A DNA stretch of 64,000 nucleotides from Ignavibacteriaceae bacterium (GTDB taxonomy: Bacteria > Bacteroidota > Ignavibacteria > Ignavibacteriales > Ignavibacteriaceae), in contig WBUK01000001.1 in the NCBI GenBank assembly GCA_008933765.1, positions 310,001 through 374,000 of the forward strand, given 5' to 3'. Under the pieces are notes generated by a model, which was not told the DNA's origin, did not search any database, and saw only the letters and a program-made list of their open reading frames with translations. The translations under genes were made by a program, and so were the position numbers. This document shows positions 3,826 through 15,451 of this stretch, piece after piece. Each line of letters begins with the position of its first letter. Within the stretch, counting starts at the first letter, position 1.

Positions 3826-5061
3826 ATGTTAAATAATTCATCGTTTCTTCGGAAACTGTTGCATCTTCATTTTATCATTTTGTTCGTTGCACTGTTCTCG
3901 TTTGCAGGCTGTGATAAAGGCGCTGCCCACCCCGGCGGCGAACCGGGAAAAGAAGGTACAGAAAACGAGACACCCGAATCCGCCTCCGGAACCAAGATTG
4001 ACCTTTCCAAATATGACCTCCACTATAATGACATGGCGAAGATTCTTGGAGGGTTGGAAGTGGAGCCGCAATCTAAATATTTCAATATTACTAAGGAAAA
4101 AGCGTGGCAGAAACATAAAGAGTTCTTCTCTACTAAATGGAAAAACCTCGAAAATAATATCCTTGATTCCGTGAAAACATGGACCGCTTCTGAACTGAGT
4201 GTTTTTGACCCAAACGCAAAAACAGTCTTCTATCCCTTTGGCGGACCCGATTTTCTGTTTGCAAATCTGTTCTTCCCTAATGCTAACCTGTACATACTTC
4301 AAGGTTTAGAACCGGTTAACCGGCTCCCTGATGATATTAAATCGAACGATTCAAGCCTCAGAAACTATTTGACTGACCTGCAAAATTCCTTAAGAGTGCT
4401 TACTGTGCGCGGTTACTTTATTACGAATCAGATGAGTAAAGACCTTAAGCAAGGAATTTTCAGAGGGGTGCTCCCGGTTATGCTTCTTTTCTTAGCAAAA
4501 ACTGAAAATACTGTTCTGGATGTTAAATATATTCTCCAGGACGGGAATGGTGATTTTAAATTGAATGATGCAGACCTCCTTACAGAAGCGCAATTAGGCA
4601 AAAATTCAGCTAAAGGTTGCGTTGTTTACTTCACTGATAAAGATCAAAAAGAAGTTAAAAAACTCTACTATTTTAGCACTGATACGCAAAACCCCTCGTG
4701 GGAAAAGTTAAAAAATCTGCAAAAATTAATCACAGAGAACGGAAAGATTATTTTCTTTGCAAAGGCAGCTTCTTATCTGCTGCACGGACATACTTTCTCT
4801 GCTCTTCGCGATTTCATCCTGAATAATGCTTCTTATCTGCTTCAAACTGATACCGGTATTCCGGTAAAATATCTCAAAGATAACTGGAATATGACCTACT
4901 ACGGCACTTATATCAAGCCTATCGCTGATTTCCCGTGGGCGTACCAGGCTGATTTGAAAGCAATATACAATGATTCATCTAAAATTAAACACATGCCGTT
5001 CGGTATCTGTTACAGATGGAAAAAGGAAGAATCACATATTATGCGGGGAATTAAAAAGTAA
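3826..5061 (+). CDS. Uncharacterised lipoprotein (411 aa)
   Basis: The protein begins with a lipoprotein signal: a hydrophobic run followed by the lipobox FAGC, with the acylated Cys at residue 29. A short Gly/Glu/Pro-rich linker follows. The globular part has no motif I recognise. It carries repeated references to an aspartate-rich segment (GNGDFKLNDADLL) and a repeated ASYLL element around residues 315-345. It is probably anchored in the outer or inner membrane facing the periplasm. It follows the permease by 12 bases, so they may share a transcript, and the transcript ends at the hairpin at 5095-5114. No function is proposed. Confidence 0.7.
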   Translation: MLNNSSFLRKLLHLHFIILFVALFSFAGCDKGAAHPGGEPGKEGTENETPESASGTKIDLSKYDLHYNDMAKILGGLEVEPQSKYFNITKEKAWQKHKEFFSTKWKNLENNILDSVKTWTASELSVFDPNAKTVFYPFGGPDFLFANLFFPNANLYILQGLEPVNRLPDDIKSNDSSLRNYLTDLQNSLRVLTVRGYFITNQMSKDLKQGIFRGVLPVMLLFLAKTENTVLDVKYILQDGNGDFKLNDADLLTEAQLGKNSAKGCVVYFTDKDQKEVKKLYYFSTDTQNPSWEKLKNLQKLITENGKIIFFAKAASYLLHGHTFSALRDFILNNASYLLQTDTGIPVKYLKDNWNMTYYGTYIKPIADFPWAYQADLKAIYNDSSKIKHMPFGICYRWKKEESHIMRGIKK

Positions 5062-5120: not shown

Positions 5121-6716
5121 TTAACCAAACGAATATAAATACCCATCCCGGCAGGCACAAAACAGAGTATCTTCCCAAATCAAAGGAGTTGCCTCGAAAG
5201 AATTGCCGGGAAGGAAAGTTTCCAGTTTTGTGAGTTTAATTCCATACTCTTCACCTTTTGCGTTTTTTGCGGTCTCTTTGCCGGCGGATTTCCCCTTAAC
5301 ATATTCCATTTGAATCAAATGAAGCCCGTTATAGGTTGGTGCAACAATTTTATTTCCGCTCGTAAATATCGGCGTTGCAATTGATGGACCTACATAAATT
5401 TTAGCGAGCAATTTCGGAACAGGATGTTCTTTTTGATTAAGCATATCTTTGGCTTTTTCACCTGAAAGCTCCGTTTGGCTGCCCACATACAAATTCCCAT
5501 CAATGGCTAAAGTAGCCCAAATCGGTGGATATTCGCCTTCGGGGTTATATTCATCGTTAATTATTGCAGTGCCGATTATACCGCCCTCCCACTCAGAAAC
5601 TTTGGTGTTCTTTGTAGGGAAATACCAAACCACCGAATCGGGTCCGGGTTTTGTGGGGTCAAGTTTTATTACGCCGCCCCTTCCGGGTACATACTGTTTT
5701 TCGATTGTACCAATAACCATGTTATCTTTGGTAATTATTGTTGATCCGTCAATATCCGAGCCGGTGTAATAGTCAAAATCAACTTTCATTGTTTTTATGT
5801 CAACACCATAAATATGACCCGCACCGGAAGCGATAAAAATCCTGTCACCTAATCTTGCGGGGCTGGCTTCAACCACAATATTATTCCGGTGTTTCTTAAC
5901 ATCATCTGCAGTGTAAAGTTTCACTTTTCCCAGAACTTTCGGTTGCTTTATTCCATCTAGCATAGCGGCTTCATCAATTCTGCTGCTTAGGAAGAACCCA
6001 TAGGCACTTTCAACGGCATTAAATAACATACCGTCACCTAAGTAGATGGGCGAACTGTCGTTATCCCGGCTGTAGCATTCAGTTTTCGGAACATTGAACC
6101 GCCAGATTTCCTTTCCGGTTCTGTAAGAAATTGCTCTGAAACTGGGGATAATTTTCGAGCCTGCAACGGTGTTACCGTTCCCCAATCTGCTTCCCTGCAG
6201 CAGAACAATACGGTTTTCTTCGGGAGCAGTTTTGTCAATATAAACAGAACCTGCCCCTTTCATAATATCATCGTTTTTATATTTCCAGACTTCTTTAAGC
6301 CCTTCTGCCTCAAATTTTCTTAAATACTGGTCGTAACCTCCAAGCACAAGCATCAATTTTCCGCCCTCATTATAGAGCGTCGGCTGCCCTGTCCATCCGG
6401 CACCGCAAAACGATTTCTTTTGTTTCCCCACCATCGAGTTCGAGCAACCCAATTTAAATTTCGATTTAACTCTAAGCTTGTTTACATCCCCCTTGCCGTA
6501 ATATCTTCGCAGTTCATTTCCCAGAAAAGTTGAAATCAAAATCTCGGTATTCCCGTCAACCCAAGGGTTATCAGCGGGGTCTTTTTTATCTTCTTTTTTC
6601 GTTTTACCGTTTTCTGCATTGTTTTGGCAGGCAGAAAGCGAAATGGTGCCCATCCCTGTTGCGGTTAATGCGCTTACTATCCCCAACGCTTTAAGAAAAT
6701 CTCTTCTGTTACTCAT
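5121..6716 (-). CDS. Tat-exported lipoprotein with PQQ-type beta-propeller repeats
   Basis: The N-terminus has a twin-arginine signal (NRRDFLK, Arg 4-5) and a lipobox-like SLSAC with Cys at residue 30, so this should be a Tat-exported, lipid-anchored periplasmic protein. The roughly 500-residue body has repeated beta-propeller blades of PQQ/quinoprotein type, such as AISYRTGKEIWRF, GHIYGVDIKTMKVDFDY and PTYNGLHLIQM. No PQQ-dehydrogenase active site is seen, so binding or scaffolding is more likely than catalysis. It starts 32 bases after the symporter stop and is the last gene of the TPP-riboswitch operon before a terminator. A role in thiamine uptake is inferred from position only. Confidence 0.8.
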   Translation of the reverse strand: MSNRRDFLKALGIVSALTATGMGTISLSACQNNAENGKTKKEDKKDPADNPWVDGNTEILISTFLGNELRRYYGKGDVNKLRVKSKFKLGCSNSMVGKQKKSFCGAGWTGQPTLYNEGGKLMLVLGGYDQYLRKFEAEGLKEVWKYKNDDIMKGAGSVYIDKTAPEENRIVLLQGSRLGNGNTVAGSKIIPSFRAISYRTGKEIWRFNVPKTECYSRDNDSSPIYLGDGMLFNAVESAYGFFLSSRIDEAAMLDGIKQPKVLGKVKLYTADDVKKHRNNIVVEASPARLGDRIFIASGAGHIYGVDIKTMKVDFDYYTGSDIDGSTIITKDNMVIGTIEKQYVPGRGGVIKLDPTKPGPDSVVWYFPTKNTKVSEWEGGIIGTAIINDEYNPEGEYPPIWATLAIDGNLYVGSQTELSGEKAKDMLNQKEHPVPKLLAKIYVGPSIATPIFTSGNKIVAPTYNGLHLIQMEYVKGKSAGKETAKNAKGEEYGIKLTKLETFLPGNSFEATPLIWEDTLFCACRDGYLYSFG

Positions 6717-6748: not shown

Positions 6749-8263
6749 TTACGAAACATTTCTTATTTCTCCTCTGTAATTAAACAGTTTAAAGACGAAG
6801 AAGGAACCACCTGTAAACAAACCTACTATCATCGGTTCAATATTTACAAGAAAAGAATTGTCGGGAAGATAACTCCTGATTATTATCCAGGCTCCCCCGG
6901 TTATCGGGACAGAAACTGACTGCAGAATCGCCGGTCTTTCACTTAACCGTAACTTTGGGAAATAGGCGCCTAATATCAAAAATATTAACGCCGGAACCAC
7001 CAAAGAGCCGATATAAAACCAAATATCTATTATCGAACGAAAAGCCAGACACAAAAATATCGCAATTCCGGTGGAAAGCAACATACCCAAACCTGACCAC
7101 GCTTTAAGGTTAAATCTCTTTTCTCTAACAGGTTCTGCTACTCTGCCGTTTGAAAAAGAAACTTTATCAGAGCTACTCTTTCCAAAAAGTGGGATAATCT
7201 CTTTCACTATATCGTTCGAAAAAGTAACTCCGCTTAGAAAAATGAAACTGTTAAGCGTTGTGTAAACCGTGGCAAACATTGAAGCCAAGAACAACCCCCT
7301 CACTCCTGCCGGAAGATGATCGCGTGCAAGAATCGGGAATGCTGAAACGGGATCGCTTAATCCAGGCTCTAACGCCCGCGCAAAAAGCCCCGAAGTGTTC
7401 GTGAAAAAATCGAAAACGAACCATAGTATAATTGAAATTAGAATTCCTTTCTTTGCAACGCCGGCACTTCGAGCTGAATATACCCGTTGATGAAAACCCG
7501 GATCGGCAATCGTCCATGAAGCAACAAGATACCAAACCAAAAGATAGAAAAAACCGCTGCCTCCCGTTAAAGAAAGATGATCAGCAGGCAGAGATTTCTC
7601 CAAAAAACCGACACTTCCATACTCCCCCACCAAAAAGATAACTGCGGCTACAAATCCGGCAAACATGAAAAAAAAGAGAAATACATCAACTTTAATGTTC
7701 GAGCGAAATCCCCCGAAGCTCAGGTAGGCAATCAGCGGAATGGGAATTATAAACAGCATTAACACGGGTGAAACACCAAAAATGGTCCCGACAATTTCTG
7801 CGGCAGTTAACAGGTAAGGTGCGGGTGAGGTTAAAATGAACACTAAAATTGCAGCAAGAATGGCAGTTTTTCTGCCGTACTCCAACTTCATTTTTGCAGG
7901 AATTGTTGCTAATCTTGTTTTTCTGATTTTTTCAGCAAAAAATAGAGCAAAAATCAACGCAAACAGGTAATACGGAAAGCCTTGTGTAAACCAGGATGAG
8001 ATACCGTATCGGTAAGAGTACTCGCCAATCCCGAGTATGCCGCCGTACCAGGTGCTTACATTAACTGCCACAAAGGCGAACAAACCAACTTCACGGTTGC
8101 TTACGATGTAGTCATCTGCAGGGTGGGTACCTTCATAACCTTTAGTTGTGCTTTCACCCTTAATGAATTTGCCGTTCGTTCCGGGTCTGCGGGCAGTGTA
8201 AAAGCCAATCCCCACGGTGCCGGCAAGAACAAAACTTACTATTGCCCAGTCAATCAGAGTCAA
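6749..8263 (-). CDS. Sodium:solute symporter (SSS family), candidate thiamine transporter
   Basis: The 504-residue protein has about 13 hydrophobic segments in the SSS pattern: an N-terminal helix (IVSFVLAGTVGIGFYTAR), the DDYIVSNREVG loop and the NVSTWYGGILGIGEYSYRYG segment around TM2, where sodium-coupled symporters of this family bind ion and substrate. It lies between thiamine pyrophosphokinase (5 bases upstream) and the Tat propeller gene (32 bases downstream), behind a TPP riboswitch and a TonB-dependent receptor. In related Bacteroidota operons the inner-membrane slot next to this kinase is usually filled by PnuT. An SSS protein called ThiV has been proposed as a thiamine transporter elsewhere from riboswitch evidence. 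Family is firm; the substrate is inferred. Confidence 0.82.
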   Translation of the reverse strand: MTLIDWAIVSFVLAGTVGIGFYTARRPGTNGKFIKGESTTKGYEGTHPADDYIVSNREVGLFAFVAVNVSTWYGGILGIGEYSYRYGISSWFTQGFPYYLFALIFALFFAEKIRKTRLATIPAKMKLEYGRKTAILAAILVFILTSPAPYLLTAAEIVGTIFGVSPVLMLFIIPIPLIAYLSFGGFRSNIKVDVFLFFFMFAGFVAAVIFLVGEYGSVGFLEKSLPADHLSLTGGSGFFYLLVWYLVASWTIADPGFHQRVYSARSAGVAKKGILISIILWFVFDFFTNTSGLFARALEPGLSDPVSAFPILARDHLPAGVRGLFLASMFATVYTTLNSFIFLSGVTFSNDIVKEIIPLFGKSSSDKVSFSNGRVAEPVREKRFNLKAWSGLGMLLSTGIAIFLCLAFRSIIDIWFYIGSLVVPALIFLILGAYFPKLRLSERPAILQSVSVPITGGAWIIIRSYLPDNSFLVNIEPMIVGLFTGGSFFVFKLFNYRGEIRNVS

Positions 8264-8268
8264 AACTT

Positions 8269-9021
8269 TTAATTTCCATTGTTATCGAAAGCTTTTTTCT
8301 GATCGTTGAGCATTGACTTTTTGCTCGCCGGTGAAGATTCTTTCGAAAGACGAAATGCGGTCATTTTTTCCAGTTCACGGATCAAAATCCCCTTACCTCC
8401 CTCCACCACAACAGAAAAAATGCCCGTGAGTGCTTTGTTACTGGTGCCGTCTCTTTTCCCAAAAGGGAGTGTTTCTCTATTCAGCGGGAAAGCCAAACCC
8501 TCGGTTGTAAACAAGGTGTTATCATCAATTCCGAACAACGAAACGGTTTCCCCCGGCGTCCCCTCTATTTTAGTTTCACCGGTGATAACCTGCAAAATTG
8601 AGCTTTCGCTCATCAGTTTAATTCTGATTTCAGGGAAATATTTTAATACCATACCGATATTGTTGAAGGAATGATCGAGCCGGTCGCCGGTTGCGCCGGC
8701 AAGTACACACTCTTTTATTCCCATCGAAATTGCTACTTTAATACATTTCTCAACATCGGTGTCGTATTGCCCTGATATCTTTTGAATTTTCGATTTTTTT
8801 GAGAAAAGCTGTAATGTTTCGGGTGAAACCGAATCAAAATCACCGGCGATAATATCAGGCGTAAGACCCAACACTTTGCATGTGTCCGCACCGCCATCTG
8901 CCGCTATCAGCAAAGGATAACCATTGTTTAAAAAGTAATTTACCTCTTCAATTATCGGCGCTCTGCCGTTTGCAAGTATAAAACAACCGGTCAATTTATT
9001 TCTCAATCTTTTATATTTCAA
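8269..9021 (-). CDS. Thiamine pyrophosphokinase
   Basis: This enzyme transfers a pyrophosphate from ATP to thiamine, making TPP. All family landmarks are present: AADGGA (about residue 40), GDFDSV (about 60), the DTDVEKCI stretch (about 87) that supplies metal-binding aspartates, and GATGDRLDH (about 108). The C-terminal beta domain follows, with an extra basic tail of roughly 30 residues. It overlaps the 3' end of the TonB-dependent receptor gene by 11 bases, which implies translational coupling. With the receptor and symporter it forms an import-and-trap route for thiamine. Confidence 0.93.
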   Translation of the reverse strand: MKYKRLRNKLTGCFILANGRAPIIEEVNYFLNNGYPLLIAADGGADTCKVLGLTPDIIAGDFDSVSPETLQLFSKKSKIQKISGQYDTDVEKCIKVAISMGIKECVLAGATGDRLDHSFNNIGMVLKYFPEIRIKLMSESSILQVITGETKIEGTPGETVSLFGIDDNTLFTTEGLAFPLNRETLPFGKRDGTSNKALTGIFSVVVEGGKGILIRELEKMTAFRLSKESSPASKKSMLNDQKKAFDNNGN

Positions 9022-11482
9022 CCTTTAAAGTGGTCATAAAATTCCTTTCTGCAGCCGGGAAGAAATTATCCCAATAGAAACCGTTCATAAAATATTTTTT
9101 GTTGAACAGGTTGTTTACTTCGAAAGTCAGTCTTAGCGCCACCCCGCCGTATGAATACTTTATTCCCGCAGAAAGGTTAACAACGGTAAAGGGGTCAACG
9201 GTAAGCTCTGTGGAAGTGTTTCCATCCGGATTTGCAGAGTTATCAGTAAACTGCACTCCTGTATGGTTCAGATGAATCCCGGCAAAAAATGATTCACTCA
9301 GGTAATTTAACCCGAAATTCAAAATCAATTCCGGCGCATTCGCTATATAATTCCCGTTTCTTGATTTCGGAGCACCAAAATCGTCGTATTCCGTAAAATC
9401 CAAATATCTGTTCCGGCTAATATTTCCGTTCACATCAAACTGAAGGCGCCACGGCAGTTTCACAAAACCCTCAAATTCCACACCAATATGCTGTGTTCTG
9501 CCTGCATTTCCCACTCTCGGCTGCCCAAAAACATCCAAACCGCCCGAAGGAACAATCTCATTTTCAAAATTCATAAAGTAGAAATTAATACTGCCGTGGA
9601 ATTTGGCGGAAGTGTAGCGCGCACCACCTTCAATGTTAAGAAGTGTTTCAGGTTTAACCAACGGATTGTCAAAATCGTACTGCCCAACGGGCTTCACTTC
9701 AAACTGTGGCACTGCACCCCAACTTGCTGATTCGGCTTCATAAAGGTTCTTTAATGGTGGTTCTCTCTTCGTCAAAGCCACTGAACCGTAAACTGAAATG
9801 TTGTTCGCTACCTGATAGTTTACACCAATCTGAGGGTTAACGAAAAAATATGGCGTCGTGAAATCTGTCCCCACGAATTTCTCGTCAAAAATCTTATATC
9901 GTTGGTAAATCATCTGCAGTTTTGCCGTCAGGCTTACCTTTTCATCAACCTGATGTTGAACACCAACAAAACCTGAATAAATATCTTTTCCGCCCTTATA
10001 TTCATAAAAGTGTCTGTCGGCTTTTTCACCAACCACATAATCCGGTAAGCCCGTCCCCGACTCAATCCGCCCCCAGTGAATTGATCTGTGAAACCTGACT
10101 TCACCCCCGACCAACACCTTGCCTTCAGGGTATCTGTACTCAAGCTGCGGCAACCAACCATACTGATCGTTATCCACAAATGCCCGCATTATGAGGTTTG
10201 CAGGAATCGCAATGGAAGTATCCAAGCGGAAATAGTCGTGCGTTCCGTAAGAAGCATCAAAATCAAAGAAGCCGTCACCCGACATGAAATATACTATGTT
10301 GTTCAGCCAAAGATTCTCGCTTATTTTAAGATTATGGTTCAGCGAAATCTGTGGCTGATTCAAAGCCTCCCGGTCTTTCGAAGCGGCGCCGGGGTTGAAT
10401 TTCCGTCTGTTTTCATCTTCATTTAATACTTTACTGATTCCGTAAAAAGCAAGCCCGTCTTTCTGAGGACCGCCAAATGCGGTAAGTGAAAACGACTGAA
10501 TATCATCGTAGTAAGAAGCACTTACAAAAAAACGCCATATCTGCGCCCATGAATTATCGCGATACCCGTCGCTCTCCAATTTTGTGCCGCGGAATCTGAA
10601 CATAAACCGGTTCCCGATTAACCCGGAGTTCCCACTTAGCGAATATTTCATTGTGTTATAGCTTCCGGTGCCTACTTCAAAAGAGCCGCCCGGCTCAACA
10701 AATGGTTTGTTCGTTACTAAGTTTATTGATGCACCAATTGCAGGTGGCCCGTAAAATGCCATCGATGCGCCCCTTTGCACCTGCACATCCTCTAATGAAT
10801 TGGCGAGGTCGTAAAAATTCAACCAGTAAACGGAATGGTCTTCCGGGTCATTCTGCGGAACACCGTTTATTAAAACGGAAATCCTCCGTTGGTCGAACCC
10901 CCGGATTCGGATATATCCGTAACCGATTCCCGTGCCCGATTCGGAATAAAAAGATACTGAGGGAAGCGTGCTTAAAATAGCAGGGATGTCGTTTGTTACA
11001 GTAAGCCGTTCAATTTCAGCCTTTGAAAGGTTTGAGTAAGAAATGCTGCTCCCCAAACCGTTGGTTCTGGTATCGGTTACCACCACTTCGGGAATTTCAA
11101 TAGCGTCCCGTTTCATGTAAACATTAACTTTGGTTTTTTCGCCCGCAACCGTAACGGTAATTCTTTCGGTTTTGTACCCGACAAACGAGCAAACAAGCCG
11201 CCACCTGCCCGGGGGCATATTACTTAAAGTGAATTTCCCCTCTTCATCAGTTACTCCTGCAAAAGGAAGGTCTTCAAATTTTACCACTACCCCTCTTAAC
11301 TTATCGCCTGTTTCGGCTTCCCTAACGGTAACCTCCAACTCTGAAGATACCTCTGTAAAAACATTGGTCGTGAAAACTTCAGTCGTGAAAACTTCAGTTG
11401 TGAAAACTTCGGTTGCAAAAACTTCGGTTGCAAAACCCGCAAATAATATCACGAATATTGCAAAAAATAATGAACGGTTCAT
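9011..11482 (-). CDS. TonB-dependent outer-membrane receptor under TPP control (thiamine uptake)
   Basis: The 823-residue protein has a signal peptide, then an odd run of 5-residue repeats (TEVFT type, residues about 18-45), a carboxypeptidase-regulatory-like beta sandwich (about 48-128), a TonB-box-like PEVVVTDTR, the plug (GYGYIRIRGFDQRRISVLINGVPQNDPED) and a beta-barrel ending in FMTTLKVEI with a terminal hydrophobic strand. The gene follows a TPP riboswitch with its own terminator. It is therefore predicted to bring thiamine or a phosphate ester across the outer membrane, as the Omr1-type receptors do. An RBS-like GAGGTTAG precedes the ATG. Confidence 0.9.
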   Translation of the reverse strand: MNRSLFFAIFVILFAGFATEVFATEVFTTEVFTTEVFTTNVFTEVSSELEVTVREAETGDKLRGVVVKFEDLPFAGVTDEEGKFTLSNMPPGRWRLVCSFVGYKTERITVTVAGEKTKVNVYMKRDAIEIPEVVVTDTRTNGLGSSISYSNLSKAEIERLTVTNDIPAILSTLPSVSFYSESGTGIGYGYIRIRGFDQRRISVLINGVPQNDPEDHSVYWLNFYDLANSLEDVQVQRGASMAFYGPPAIGASINLVTNKPFVEPGGSFEVGTGSYNTMKYSLSGNSGLIGNRFMFRFRGTKLESDGYRDNSWAQIWRFFVSASYYDDIQSFSLTAFGGPQKDGLAFYGISKVLNEDENRRKFNPGAASKDREALNQPQISLNHNLKISENLWLNNIVYFMSGDGFFDFDASYGTHDYFRLDTSIAIPANLIMRAFVDNDQYGWLPQLEYRYPEGKVLVGGEVRFHRSIHWGRIESGTGLPDYVVGEKADRHFYEYKGGKDIYSGFVGVQHQVDEKVSLTAKLQMIYQRYKIFDEKFVGTDFTTPYFFVNPQIGVNYQVANNISVYGSVALTKREPPLKNLYEAESASWGAVPQFEVKPVGQYDFDNPLVKPETLLNIEGGARYTSAKFHGSINFYFMNFENEIVPSGGLDVFGQPRVGNAGRTQHIGVEFEGFVKLPWRLQFDVNGNISRNRYLDFTEYDDFGAPKSRNGNYIANAPELILNFGLNYLSESFFAGIHLNHTGVQFTDNSANPDGNTSTELTVDPFTVVNLSAGIKYSYGGVALRLTFEVNNLFNKKYFMNGFYWDNFFPAAERNFMTTLKVEI
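11355..11440. repeat. 15-bp tandem repeat in the TonB-dependent receptor gene
   Basis: About five and a half units of 15 bp (starts at 11355, 11370, 11385, 11400, 11415, 11430) encode TEVFT/TEVFA pentapeptides just after the predicted signal peptide, before the first folded domain. Confidence 0.85.
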
Positions 11483-11499
11483 TTCTAACCTCGTTTTTA

Positions 11500-11542
11500 A
11501 AAATAAAAAGCCGTTTTTCAGAGGGGTAACTGAAAAACGGCT
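11500..11542 (-). terminator. Expression-platform terminator of the TPP riboswitch
   Basis: A perfect 13-bp stem (11509-11521 with 11530-11542) with an 8-base loop is followed on the reverse strand by a T-rich run. It lies between the aptamer and the receptor ATG, the arrangement expected for ligand-induced transcription termination. Confidence 0.93.
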
Positions 11543-11548
11543 TAAATC

Positions 11549-11625
11549 TCTTCCCTACGCCGGCATTACCCGGATCAGGTTCAAGGGTTTGTTCTCAGCC
11601 CTTTCGGGCACCCCTAAGAATCAAC
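11549..11625 (-). promoter_or_regulatory. TPP riboswitch (THI element) aptamer
   Basis: On the reverse strand the conserved THI-box blocks occur in order: GGGGTGCCC, GGGCTGAGA, ACCCTTGAACCTGATC and GGGTAATGCCGGCGTAGGGAAG (written here as separate blocks). They match the TPP aptamer's P2/P3 and P4/P5 arms closely. With the hairpin at 11509-11542 it should shut off the receptor-kinase-symporter-propeller operon when TPP is plentiful. The promoter must lie in the roughly 40 bases between the aptamer and the upstream gene's stop at 11667, or transcription reads through from that gene. Confidence 0.97.
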
Positions 11626-11666: not shown

Positions 11667-13832
11667 CTATCTCTTTTTTGATCTTGTGTTCGTTTTCTTT
11701 TTTGGAGCACTTTTTCCAGCAGCTTTATTTTTTGCAGGCGCTGTGTTCTTCTTTACAGTGTTCTTTTTCGGAGCATAAGTTTTTTTAGTAACTTTTTGCT
11801 TCTGTCCATAAGTCTTATTTGCGCCGTAACCTTTTTTGGTTGTTTTCGGAGCAACATATCCGGTGCTTTTCTTCACAGTAGTGCTCTTCGCCGGCGCTTT
11901 GTAATTATTAGTTACGGACGGGGTTGTTACATCAGTAACGGTTTTGTTGGAATAGATTTTAAGGCTCTGGCCCTCCAGCAAATTGTCGCTTTGCAGTTCG
12001 TTCCAGGTCTTAATATCCGATACGGTTACCCCGTACTTAGAAGCAATGGCACTTATGGTTTCGTTTGCCTTAACTTTATATATGTTCAGTGTCGCTGTAT
12101 TTCTTCCGGTGTTATCACCATAAGAAACTGAATTGTTGCCGGCTGAGTAAATAGTAAGTTTTGTATTGGCATAAACCAACCCGTTTCTGATCTTCCTGGC
12201 ATTCCAAGATTTAAGATCATCTACCGATACATTATATTTCTGTGCTATTTCAGCGAGTGTTTCGCCATATTTTACAGTGTGTGTGTATGTTTTTGTCTCG
12301 GTAGTCTGGGTTGTTTGCTGATTTGCCGGCTCAGACGGAACTACACCATCGAGTGCAGCGTAAGTGTCATAATTTGCAACCGGAACATTAATCAGTAACT
12401 GCTGCCCATCTTTTGCGTTTTCAAACGCAGAAATGTTGTTCCATTTCCTTAAATCAGAAACTGTAACACCGAATTTCTGCGCCACCTGAACCAAATTCTC
12501 ATCACTTCTGATCGAATATTTCAGTGTTGTCATCCCGGGTTCATTCGCAATTGCCAACTGAGCAGAACCGTTGCTGCCCTGTAAACCGGCTATTACCTGA
12601 GCAGATGAACCCGGCGGAACACGAAGATTATACTCACCGCTTCCCGGCGTGTTGTTTTGAAGAAGCTCAGGGTTAAGATCTTTGATTTCGGTTAACGAAA
12701 CACCCGCAAAGTTTGCTACATTAATAAGCGGGGTTGACCGCCCTACCGTAATCGTTTCAAAATTGAAAGGTGACTCATAAACAATATCGGTTAAACCAAA
12801 TTTTGCAGGGTTCATCGCAACCAGTGTCGCCGCTATATAAGCCGGCACATAGTTTCTGGTTTCCTGCGGAAGTAGCTGTTGTACCGACCAGTAACTGTTC
12901 TCAGTGCCTCTCTTTAACGCTTTGGTGATTCTGCCTGAACCGGCATTGTAGGCTGCAAGTGCAAGATACCAGTCACCGAGCGATTCTTTAAGGTCGCGCA
13001 AGTGTTTAGCAGCGGCTCTTGTAGCTTTTACGGGGTCTTTTCTCTCGTCGATTGTGTAATCAACTCTAAGTTTATATAACTGCCCCGTTCCTTTCATAAA
13101 CTGCCATAACCCCATTGCGCCGGCAATCGAACGGGCGTTAGGGTTAAGACCGCTTTCAATCAAGGTTAAATATGCGAGTTCTGACGGAACGCCCTCTTCT
13201 TTAAGAATGGGAAGGATAATCGGGAAATACTTGCCCGTTCTTGCAATCCATTGCTTGAAGAAGTTCTTTCCTTTTCCGGTATAAAAGGCTATCCATTTTT
13301 CAACCTGCTCGTTAACTTCCAGAGAAATTTCGTGTGAACCGGTCTCGGCTACAACAATCGACTCGGCGTATTTCTCAAGTTCTTCAGGAGTGATTAAAAG
13401 CTTCGTGTCAACGAAGTTTTTATCGCTGTTTTTCAGAATATCCTTAAATGCGTCAACGGAAACATCCTGAATATCTTCATCAATGTTACCGACAAGCGCA
13501 CTCGTTTCATCCATGATCAGCAGTTTAAGCTCTGCAAATCTTGGGTTGGCATCAATTCCCGGGTAGTTGTCAAGATTGTTGATAATCTCAACAGCAGAAC
13601 TGAGATAATTGATAGCTTCCTGTGTGGAATTCTTCCTCGACTTGTCAACAGCCTGTTGGTAAAAGGCGTATGCTCTGTCGATTTCCTGTGGTACGATGTC
13701 TTGGGTTGCTATGTTCTTTTGCGTTTCAGGTGTAATTACCTGCGTATCTGCGGTTTCGGTCCCCGGAGCCCAGAAACACCCTGAAAATCCGAAAACTGAA
13801 ACTGCAAATAACAGGAGTACTGTTTTACGCAT
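11667..13832 (-). CDS. Membrane-bound lytic murein transglycosylase with LysM domains (MltD-like)
   Basis: This 721-residue lipoprotein (lipobox FSGC, Cys 19) cleaves peptidoglycan glycan strands. The SLT catalytic domain lies around residues 205-315: the catalytic Glu is in LTLIESGLN, followed by GAMGLWQFM and the [10 protein letters not shown] signature. Three LysM peptidoglycan-binding modules follow, at about 430-478 ([10 protein letters not shown]), 510-558 (HTVKYGETL) and 575-622 (YKVKANETI). The tail of about 85 residues is very rich in Lys, Ala and Thr, with YGxxKT-like repeats, and may bind wall or nucleic-acid polyanions nonspecifically. It is probably transcribed alone. Its stop is 40 bases before the riboswitch. 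Confidence 0.93.
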
Positions 13833-13906
13833 TAAACCTCCTATTGGTTGTTTTTGTGTGAATAAAAAAAACTTTAATTCTAATTGTTAATTCCTTTTTA
13901 AAATTC

Positions 13907-15451
13907 CTACAACGGAATATTCGAGTGTTTTTTACCCGGATTTTTATCCTTTTTGGTCTTCAGCAGCTGAAACGAATTAATAAGCCTTACTCTGGTATCC
14001 TCAGGTTCTATTACATCATCAATAAAACCTCTTTCAGCAGCAGTATAAGGATTGGCGAATTTCTCTATATATTCCGCCAGTTTTTCGTTCAGCGCCACTT
14101 CCGGGTCTTTTGCCGCAGAAATTTCCTTCTTAAAAATTATCTCAACGGCACCTTTGGGCCCCATAACTGCAATTTCCGCAGAGGGCCACGCAAAATTGAA
14201 ATCTCCTCTTATGTGCTTCGAGTTCATAACATCGTAAGCACCACCGTACGCTTTGCGTGTGATTACGGTTATTTTTGGAACTGTAGCCTCGCTAAAAGCA
14301 AAAAGAAGTTTAGCCCCGTGCCGGATTATACCGTTCCATTCCTGGTCAGTTCCCGGTAAAAACCCGGGGACATCCTCGAGCACCAACAACGGAATGTTGA
14401 ATGCGTCGCAGAACCGTACAAACCTGGCACCCTTAACCGATGCATTTATATCCAGTACACCCGCAAGAACAGAGGGCTGGTTGGCTACAATTCCGATGCT
14501 TAAACCGCCCATTCGGGCAAAACCGCAGATTATATTCTCTGCATGGTTAGGCTGTACTTCTAAAAATTCCTCTTCATCAACAAGCAACCTGATCACTTCC
14601 TTCATGTCGTAAGGCTTTCCGGAATTGTCGGGTATAATATTTTTTAGACGCTCGTCTTTTTTTATGGTTCCATTTTTGAACGGGCGAGCCGGCGCTCTGT
14701 CCCGATAATTCAAAGGAAGATAACCCATTAGATTCCTGACATTCATCAGGGTTTCAATCTCGTTTTCAAAAGCAAAGTGAGCAACTCCGCTTTTAACCGA
14801 ATGCGTCTCCGCCCCTCCAAGGTCTTCAAAAGTTACATCTTCGTGTGTTACGGTTTTAACCACATTAGGCCCCGTTACAAACATGTAACTCGTATTTTTC
14901 ACCATGAAAATAAAATCAGTTATCGCCGGCGAATAAACCGCTCCACCTGCACATGGTCCCATGATAACACTAATCTGCGGTATCACGCCGCTTGCCAGTG
15001 TGTTCAGCAGAAAAATATCCGCATAACCGCCAAGGCTTACAACGCCTTCCTGTATCCTGGCGCCACCCGAATCGTTCAGACCGATTACGGGTATCCCTGT
15101 TTTCATTGCCATGTTCATAATTTTGCAGATTTTCTCTGCATGGGTTTCAGAGAGCGAGCCTCCGAAAACTGTAAAATCCTGGCTGAATACTGCAACCGGG
15201 CGCCCCTCAATCGTGCCGAAACCGGTTACTACCCCATCACCGTAGAAAGTTTGTTTATCTAACCCAAAATCTTTCGATCTGTGTTTAACAAAAACATCGA
15301 TCTCTTCAAAACTTCCTTCATCTAAAAGAAGTTCTACCCTTTCACGAGCGGAAAGTTTCCCCTGTTTGTGTTGTTTGGCGATTCTCTCATCCCCACCACC
15401 CTTTTTTGCAATTTCTTTTTTCTTTCTAAGTTCCGCAATTTTATCGTGCAT
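13907..15451 (-). CDS. Acyl-CoA carboxylase carboxyltransferase subunit (propionyl-CoA carboxylase beta / methylmalonyl-CoA decarboxylase alpha type)
   Basis: The 514-residue protein has the two crotonase-fold halves of the biotin-dependent carboxyltransferase family. Landmarks are the GARIQEGV segment after the first acyl-CoA site, [12 protein letters not shown] (oxyanion loop of the N domain), and [27 protein letters not shown] with the later [12 protein letters not shown] (C domain). It exchanges CO2 between carboxybiotin and propionyl-CoA or methylmalonyl-CoA. No biotin carboxylase or carrier gene is adjacent. Together with the B12-binding mutase domain at 45356 it suggests a methylmalonyl-CoA/propionate route. 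It is close to mmdA/pccB; which of the two cannot be settled here. Confidence 0.92.

Follow-up and report, generated by a model that had tools for sequence, protein, structure and literature searches.

Which protein would carry thiamine across the inner membrane when a thiamine operon holds a sodium:solute symporter (SSS) in the slot of PnuT, a carrier of the facilitator type? This question is raised by a locus in an Ignavibacteriaceae draft genome, within a 64,000-nucleotide stretch of DNA (contig WBUK01000001.1, positions 310,001 to 374,000; hereafter, the window). In Bacteroides, the thiamine uptake operon comprises OMthi, pnuT, and tnr3 and, like the locus studied here, brings together a TPP riboswitch, a TonB-dependent receptor (TBDR), a thiamine pyrophosphokinase (TPK), and an inner-membrane carrier, often as a single operon (PMC5613172). 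In contrast, the carrier in the window is an SSS symporter, and the window genome has neither a match to the PnuT family (PF04973) nor the biosynthesis operon.

Operon layout and riboswitch

On the minus strand of the window, a TPP aptamer and a strong terminator are followed by genes for a TonB receptor, a TPK, an SSS symporter, and a beta-propeller protein. In the order of transcription, the features are as follows:

11534..11625, minus strand: TPP riboswitch aptamer (RF00059), a covariance model match above the gathering cut-off
11610..11615, minus strand: AGGGGU, the 5' strand of aptamer stem P2, predicted antiterminator half
11508..11543, minus strand: intrinsic terminator with a 14-bp stem, the loop TTACCCCT, and a T tail
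11527-11522, minus strand: ACCCCU in the terminator loop, complementary to AGGGGU of P2
9011..11482, minus strand: TonB-dependent outer-membrane receptor with a CarbopepD_reg_2 domain, plug, and barrel; OMthi-like in view of its neighbors
8269..9021, minus strand: thiamine pyrophosphokinase of the thiN/tnr3 type (TIGR01378, PF04263, PF04265)
6749..8263, minus strand: SSS-family sodium:solute symporter (PF00474), predicted Na+:thiamine symporter
5121..6716, minus strand: PQQ/BamB-type beta-propeller (by family profile), putative Tat lipoprotein with RRDFLK and LSAC motifs

This tight series had been described in the original prediction and was borne out, with the aptamer identified by the covariance model and the receptor, TPK, and SSS protein by Pfam and NCBIfam. 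The TBDR and TPK genes overlap by 11 bases, the gap between TPK and SSS is 5 bases, and 32 bases separate SSS from the propeller gene, which lies just beyond the interval first delimited (6749-11625). The receptor matches PF00593 (7.8e-36), PF07715 (6.7e-16), and PF13715 (1.7e-17), with plug and beta-barrel (PF07715 and PF00593) both above their cut-offs, and its context suggests an OMthi-like role in thiamine import. The TPK scores 146.1 bits with the NCBIfam equivalog model TIGR01378 (cut-off, 76.4) and has both the catalytic and the B1-binding domains (PF04263 and PF04265). The SSS protein is well above the PF00474 cut-off (70.1 versus 22.8 bits) and falls under that of TIGR00813 (88.9 versus 184 bits).

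Two further observations were made at this end of the locus. A 15-bp tandem repeat of about four copies (11367-11435) in the N-terminal coding region of the receptor gene encodes TEVFT repeats after the signal sequence and is a candidate for variation in length. Just upstream of the riboswitch (11667-15451), a LysM/SLT (MltD-like) lytic transglycosylase gene is preceded by an acyl-CoA carboxyltransferase gene, and this neighborhood, which has no evident link to thiamine, is kept through much of the order.

The aptamer matched RF00059 over its full length (positions 1-105) with 71 bits (gathering cut-off, 54.3; E value, 5.7e-12) and was the only TPP match in the whole 3.36-Mb draft genome. The 3' end of the aptamer and the terminator overlap, and the terminator is also present in the predicted fold of the full leader, which was far more stable than those of shuffled sequences (z = -3.6; none of 200 shuffles folded equally well). 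The eight-base terminator loop is identical across the window genome and both congeners (G149 and G218). When the transcript was ended after this loop, the predicted minimum free energy structure of all three leaders, which are those of close relatives, dropped P2 and paired AGGGGU with ACCCCU; at full length, the predicted fold reverted to aptamer plus terminator. The leader fits an OFF switch that acts by transcription attenuation, with TPP favoring the aptamer and the AGGGGU-ACCCCU pairing predicted as the antiterminator when TPP is absent. A sigma-70 promoter scan returned fewer matches than it did in shuffled sequences, and we therefore claim no promoter.

Conservation of the TPK-symporter pair and exchange with PnuT

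A scan with the SSS protein as the query, using one genome per species, yielded 36 loci in named genomes of Ignavibacteria, Balneolales, and records named just Bacteroidetes or bacterium. In 35 of the 36 loci, the gene immediately before SSS was TPK, and the complete TPP-TBDR-TPK-SSS arrangement was present in 26, with several of the incomplete loci interrupted by contig ends. TPP matches were found in 283 of 294 class genomes, nearly always one per genome. Among 80 fetched TPP loci, which were hand-picked across families for diversity and length of contigs and whose counts are thus not frequencies, 51 from 11 families had the TBDR-TPK-SSS order and 23 had the receptor alone behind the riboswitch. 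The SSS family itself occurred in 217 of 284 class genomes, nearly always as a single copy, and in none of 20 chosen TPP loci outside the class. The search for SSS genes beside TPP riboswitches in Ignavibacteria that had been proposed at the outset had a positive outcome, and the sequences indicate that the symporter-bearing thiamine operon is conserved over most of the class.

The TPK-SSS pair was also found in other arrangements. At six loci of family f8, the TPP riboswitch controls only the receptor, and TPK and SSS are located together elsewhere (at a seventh, 1.2 kb lies between them), and in Balneolales, the two genes are adjacent with no TPP match within the locus. Family f24 has the order TPP-thiM-thiE-thiL-TBDR-TPK-SSS (L214 and L215; genomes G121 and G154), in which thiM, thiE, and thiL each exceed their NCBIfam cut-offs; this arrangement, which reads as a salvage-plus-uptake operon, was seen in family f24 only. 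Because the TPK-SSS linkage recurs in independent contexts, the symporter appears to be tied to thiamine and not merely to the riboswitch.

Other layouts were encountered in the same survey. The riboswitch stands over the receptor alone in families f9, f16, f17, f21, and others, and at loci from many families (L145, L149-L151, L159-L165, and L171-L178) it precedes a TonB receptor alone, with TPK and the carrier elsewhere. At two loci of family f6 (L143 and L144), it is positioned just upstream of a ThiC gene, in place of the receptor operon. An apparent TPK-SSS fusion in L216 (a 711-amino-acid open reading frame) was rejected, as its junction codon contains an N and the frame is open through this ambiguity only. 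Plasmid matches to the SSS protein had 22-36% identity, and no thiamine genes were found in the three annotated neighborhoods that were inspected (Haladaptatus, Dinoroseobacter, and C. difficile).

The window genome has no match to PF04973 (PnuC/PnuT), and this domain is missing from nearly all of its family. Across the class, 28 of 294 genomes have a PnuC/T protein above the cut-off, and the SSS protein and PnuC/T were found together in only 2 of the 26 PnuC/T genomes among the 284 scanned for SSS (Fisher P of ~5e-15, without correction for phylogeny). This exclusion follows families, and the P value overstates the number of independent events; the exclusion is strong among families, rather than representing many independent events. 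In family f19 and in one f31 genome, the operon reads TBDR-TPK-PnuT, with PnuT in the same order and slot. The view that the symporter occupies a position held by PnuT elsewhere in Bacteroidota is thereby supported both by class-wide conservation and by true PnuT swaps in relatives. In a tree of the SSS family and reference SSS proteins (ThiV and CHT sequences not among them), the family formed one clade with support of 100/99, apart from the references tried. The window protein grouped with its own genus inside this clade, which points to inheritance and not to recent import. The SSS protein is a member of an old subfamily that is spread across the class and stands in for PnuT.

Predicted fold and sodium sites and candidate cargo of the symporter

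The AlphaFold model of the SSS protein (pLDDT, 88.6) has the SSS (LeuT-type) fold and matched solved SSS structures with Z scores of 22 to 41, including CHT1 (40.8), SiaT (32.8), and SGLT (~32). A PDB search with the single sequence gave no match, and a family profile was needed, for which CHT1 was the best PDB match; identity to CHT1 is ~17%. The Na2 serines of CHT1, S346 and S347 (PMC11589582), align with T335 and T336 in TM8 of the window protein, and all 108 family sequences carry Ser or Thr at both positions. The Na3 set is partly kept, with D193 mostly present and N338 of the window protein opposite CHT1 D349. Given the Na2 hydroxyls, the sodium-coupled inner-membrane step envisaged in the original prediction is plausible, and we infer that Na+ is the driving ion.

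In the predicted binding site, CHT1 residues W62, Y91, and W406 correspond to W72 (101/108 sequences), Y98 (107/108), and W415 (108/108) of the window family. W415 is not diagnostic because it is also found in SiaT, PanF-like, and PutP-like proteins. The remaining two residues, W141 and W254, are represented by S/T146 and D254 (Asp in 102/108), and the window family therefore does not have the complete CHT aromatic cage (W62, Y91, W141, W254, and W406). Relative to the choline transporters CHT1/SLC5A7 and bacterial sfCHT, the window protein thus retains three cage positions, differs at the other two, and has a thiamine genomic context. Thiamine carries a thiazolium cation, for which a partial aromatic cage with an added aspartate would be well suited.

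Co-regulation alone does not establish the substrate. ThiC and ThiE (TMP synthase) are absent from the window genome, a draft of 90% completeness in which absent genes could be missing sequence, and those members of the order that were sampled lack ThiC as well. Partial ThiG matches of ~25 bits, compared with 348-383 bits for true ThiG elsewhere, were read as other TIM barrels and set aside. A cell that has TPK but not ThiE can use thiamine and not HMP, the pyrimidine precursor; with ThiC, ThiE, and a credible ThiG all lacking, the cargo should therefore be thiamine, and we infer this for the SSS protein of the window. In family f24, which has ThiM-ThiE-ThiL in the operon, precursors could be cargo as well.

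One alternative is that the symporter is an HMP importer of the ThiV/SSSP type. ThiV/SSSP proteins of SAR11, Methylobacillus, and algae belong to the same PF00474 family and are likewise under TPP riboswitch control (PMC4260697, PMC11452348), as is the window SSS protein, and SAR11 ThiV is likely an HMP importer (PMC11452348). The window family also has an F257-H258 pair near the reported Phe254-plus-His feature. However, HMP could not become thiamine with the gene content described above, and the enzyme adjoining the symporter is a TPK, which acts on thiamine. The ThiV/SSSP reports describe no TBDR-TPK operon. In our sequence alignments, the reported Tyr78, Asp139, and Phe254 (SiaT numbering) fall opposite a gap, Tyr150, and Asp254 and so do not line up with Tyr, Asp, and Phe; the published comparison aligned structures (PMC11452348). 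A second alternative is that the symporter is a mere passenger of the operon that carries another solute, such as pantothenate, choline, or a sugar. Its annotation is generic, the closest equivalog with a name, apart from the superfamily model, is a weak panF match, and the choline transporter CHT1 is its nearest solved fold. The panF match (TIGR02119) scores only 65 bits where 328 would be required, however, and W141 and W254, at which Ala mutations abolish choline uptake by CHT1 (PMC11589582, PMC13220886), are the very positions changed to S/T and Asp. A passenger would also be expected neither to stay beside TPK across families, with or without the riboswitch, nor to swap with PnuT. We consider HMP import very improbable and a passenger role slightly more so. 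The predictions for both ThiV and PnuT reportedly come from one earlier study.

The propeller gene and the proposed uptake route

The last gene of the series encodes a protein whose own Pfam scores are sub-threshold (PF13570, 34.7 versus 133), as is its score with the TAT_signal model (19.7 versus 22.7 bits); the RRDFLK motif and the LSAC lipobox were seen directly. The family profile matched designed PQQ-type propellers in the PDB (to 2.6e-36) and BamB (1e-6), and PF13360 was detected in 11 of 14 family members. Compared with PQQ_2/BamB-type propeller lipoproteins, the window protein is longer and represents a separate family. A structure model from the single sequence (pLDDT, 32) was unusable. 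Propeller homologs were present in 20 of 294 class genomes and absent from the rest of the window genome's family in the sample. The gene adjoins the operon in the window and in two complete congeners, all of genus g1, where it starts 32 to about 47 bases past the SSS stop codon. None of the other class homologs was observed next to a TPP riboswitch; the distant ones are unlinked, have no consistent common neighbors, and resemble ordinary Sec lipoproteins, the RR-type signal being limited to genus g1 among the aligned members. No relatives were found in viral contigs. A convergent 411-amino-acid lipoprotein-like open reading frame without a family match (3826-5061) is also located near the propeller gene in both congeners.

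The 32-base gap of the window yielded no terminator, and co-transcription of the propeller gene with the operon is therefore likely. Because other sampled members of the family lack it and its other homologs were not seen beside TPP riboswitches, the gene was probably gained in this genus as a late neighbor. The original prediction had put the propeller forward as a possible new periplasmic part of thiamine uptake. A functional role of this kind within the genus, for example as a binding or capture lipoprotein, would suit its position immediately 3' of SSS in all three genus genomes where this is visible, the absence of an intervening terminator in the window, and its lipoprotein-type N terminus. 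The search for its conservation with TPP riboswitches in relatives, however, confined the association to genus g1, and the scattered homologs without shared neighbors argue against such a role, as does a TAAATTTG box noted by eye just before the propeller start in the congeners, from which the gene may have its own promoter. The suggestion is thus not supported, and we regard it as improbable.

Our preferred reading, in which we have considerable confidence, is that the locus is a TPP-repressed thiamine uptake operon with an SSS carrier in the place of PnuT, in an organism unable to make thiamine. The sequences themselves show the order of the genes and its conservation, the exchange of carriers in the slot, the lack of biosynthesis genes, the predicted fold, and the conserved Na2 hydroxyls; thiamine would be the cargo, Na+ the driving ion, and the P2-loop pairing the antiterminator. 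At high TPP, the aptamer would hold the P2 strand, the terminator would form, and transcription would halt ahead of the receptor gene. At low TPP, AGGGGU of the aptamer would pair with the terminator loop and allow polymerase readthrough. Thiamine would then cross the outer membrane through the TonB-dependent receptor and the inner membrane, together with Na+, through the SSS protein; its pyrophosphorylation to TPP by TPK would trap the vitamin and close the feedback loop. Readthrough would probably reach the propeller gene as well, to which we assign no role in thiamine uptake.

An SSS protein in a thiamine operon is less novel than had been implied, as ThiV/SSSP (PMC4260697, PMC11452348) and Candida Dur31 have already been described. 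Dur31 is also an SSS-family thiamine transporter under TPP riboswitch control, backed by the pyrithiamine resistance of Candida deletion mutants (PMC5997356), and differs from the window system in being eukaryotic and in having an intronic riboswitch. In a full-text search of open papers, none was found that brings together Ignavibacteria, thiamine, and the TPP riboswitch. What looks new here is the combination of TonB receptor and symporter in a thiamine operon with an apparently separate SSS subfamily. We lean neither way on the broader proposal that most Ignavibacteria and some Balneolales use, as their standard Na+-driven thiamine importer, a distinct SSS subfamily that is separate from ThiV/SSSP and marked by a CHT1-like partial aromatic cage and a near-invariant D254.

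Overall, these results offer a specific assignment for a transporter family that is annotated only as "sodium/solute symporter" in more than 200 sampled genomes, and they show that, within a single class, two unrelated carriers, one of the facilitator type and one of the symporter type, exchange in the same slot of the operon. If the assignment is true, thiamine uptake would be energized at both membranes, by TonB outside and Na+ inside, with no reliance on a PnuT facilitator. Many uncultured Ignavibacteria would then be thiamine auxotrophs that scavenge the vitamin through an active inner-membrane step, which would bear on vitamin exchange in the communities in which they live.
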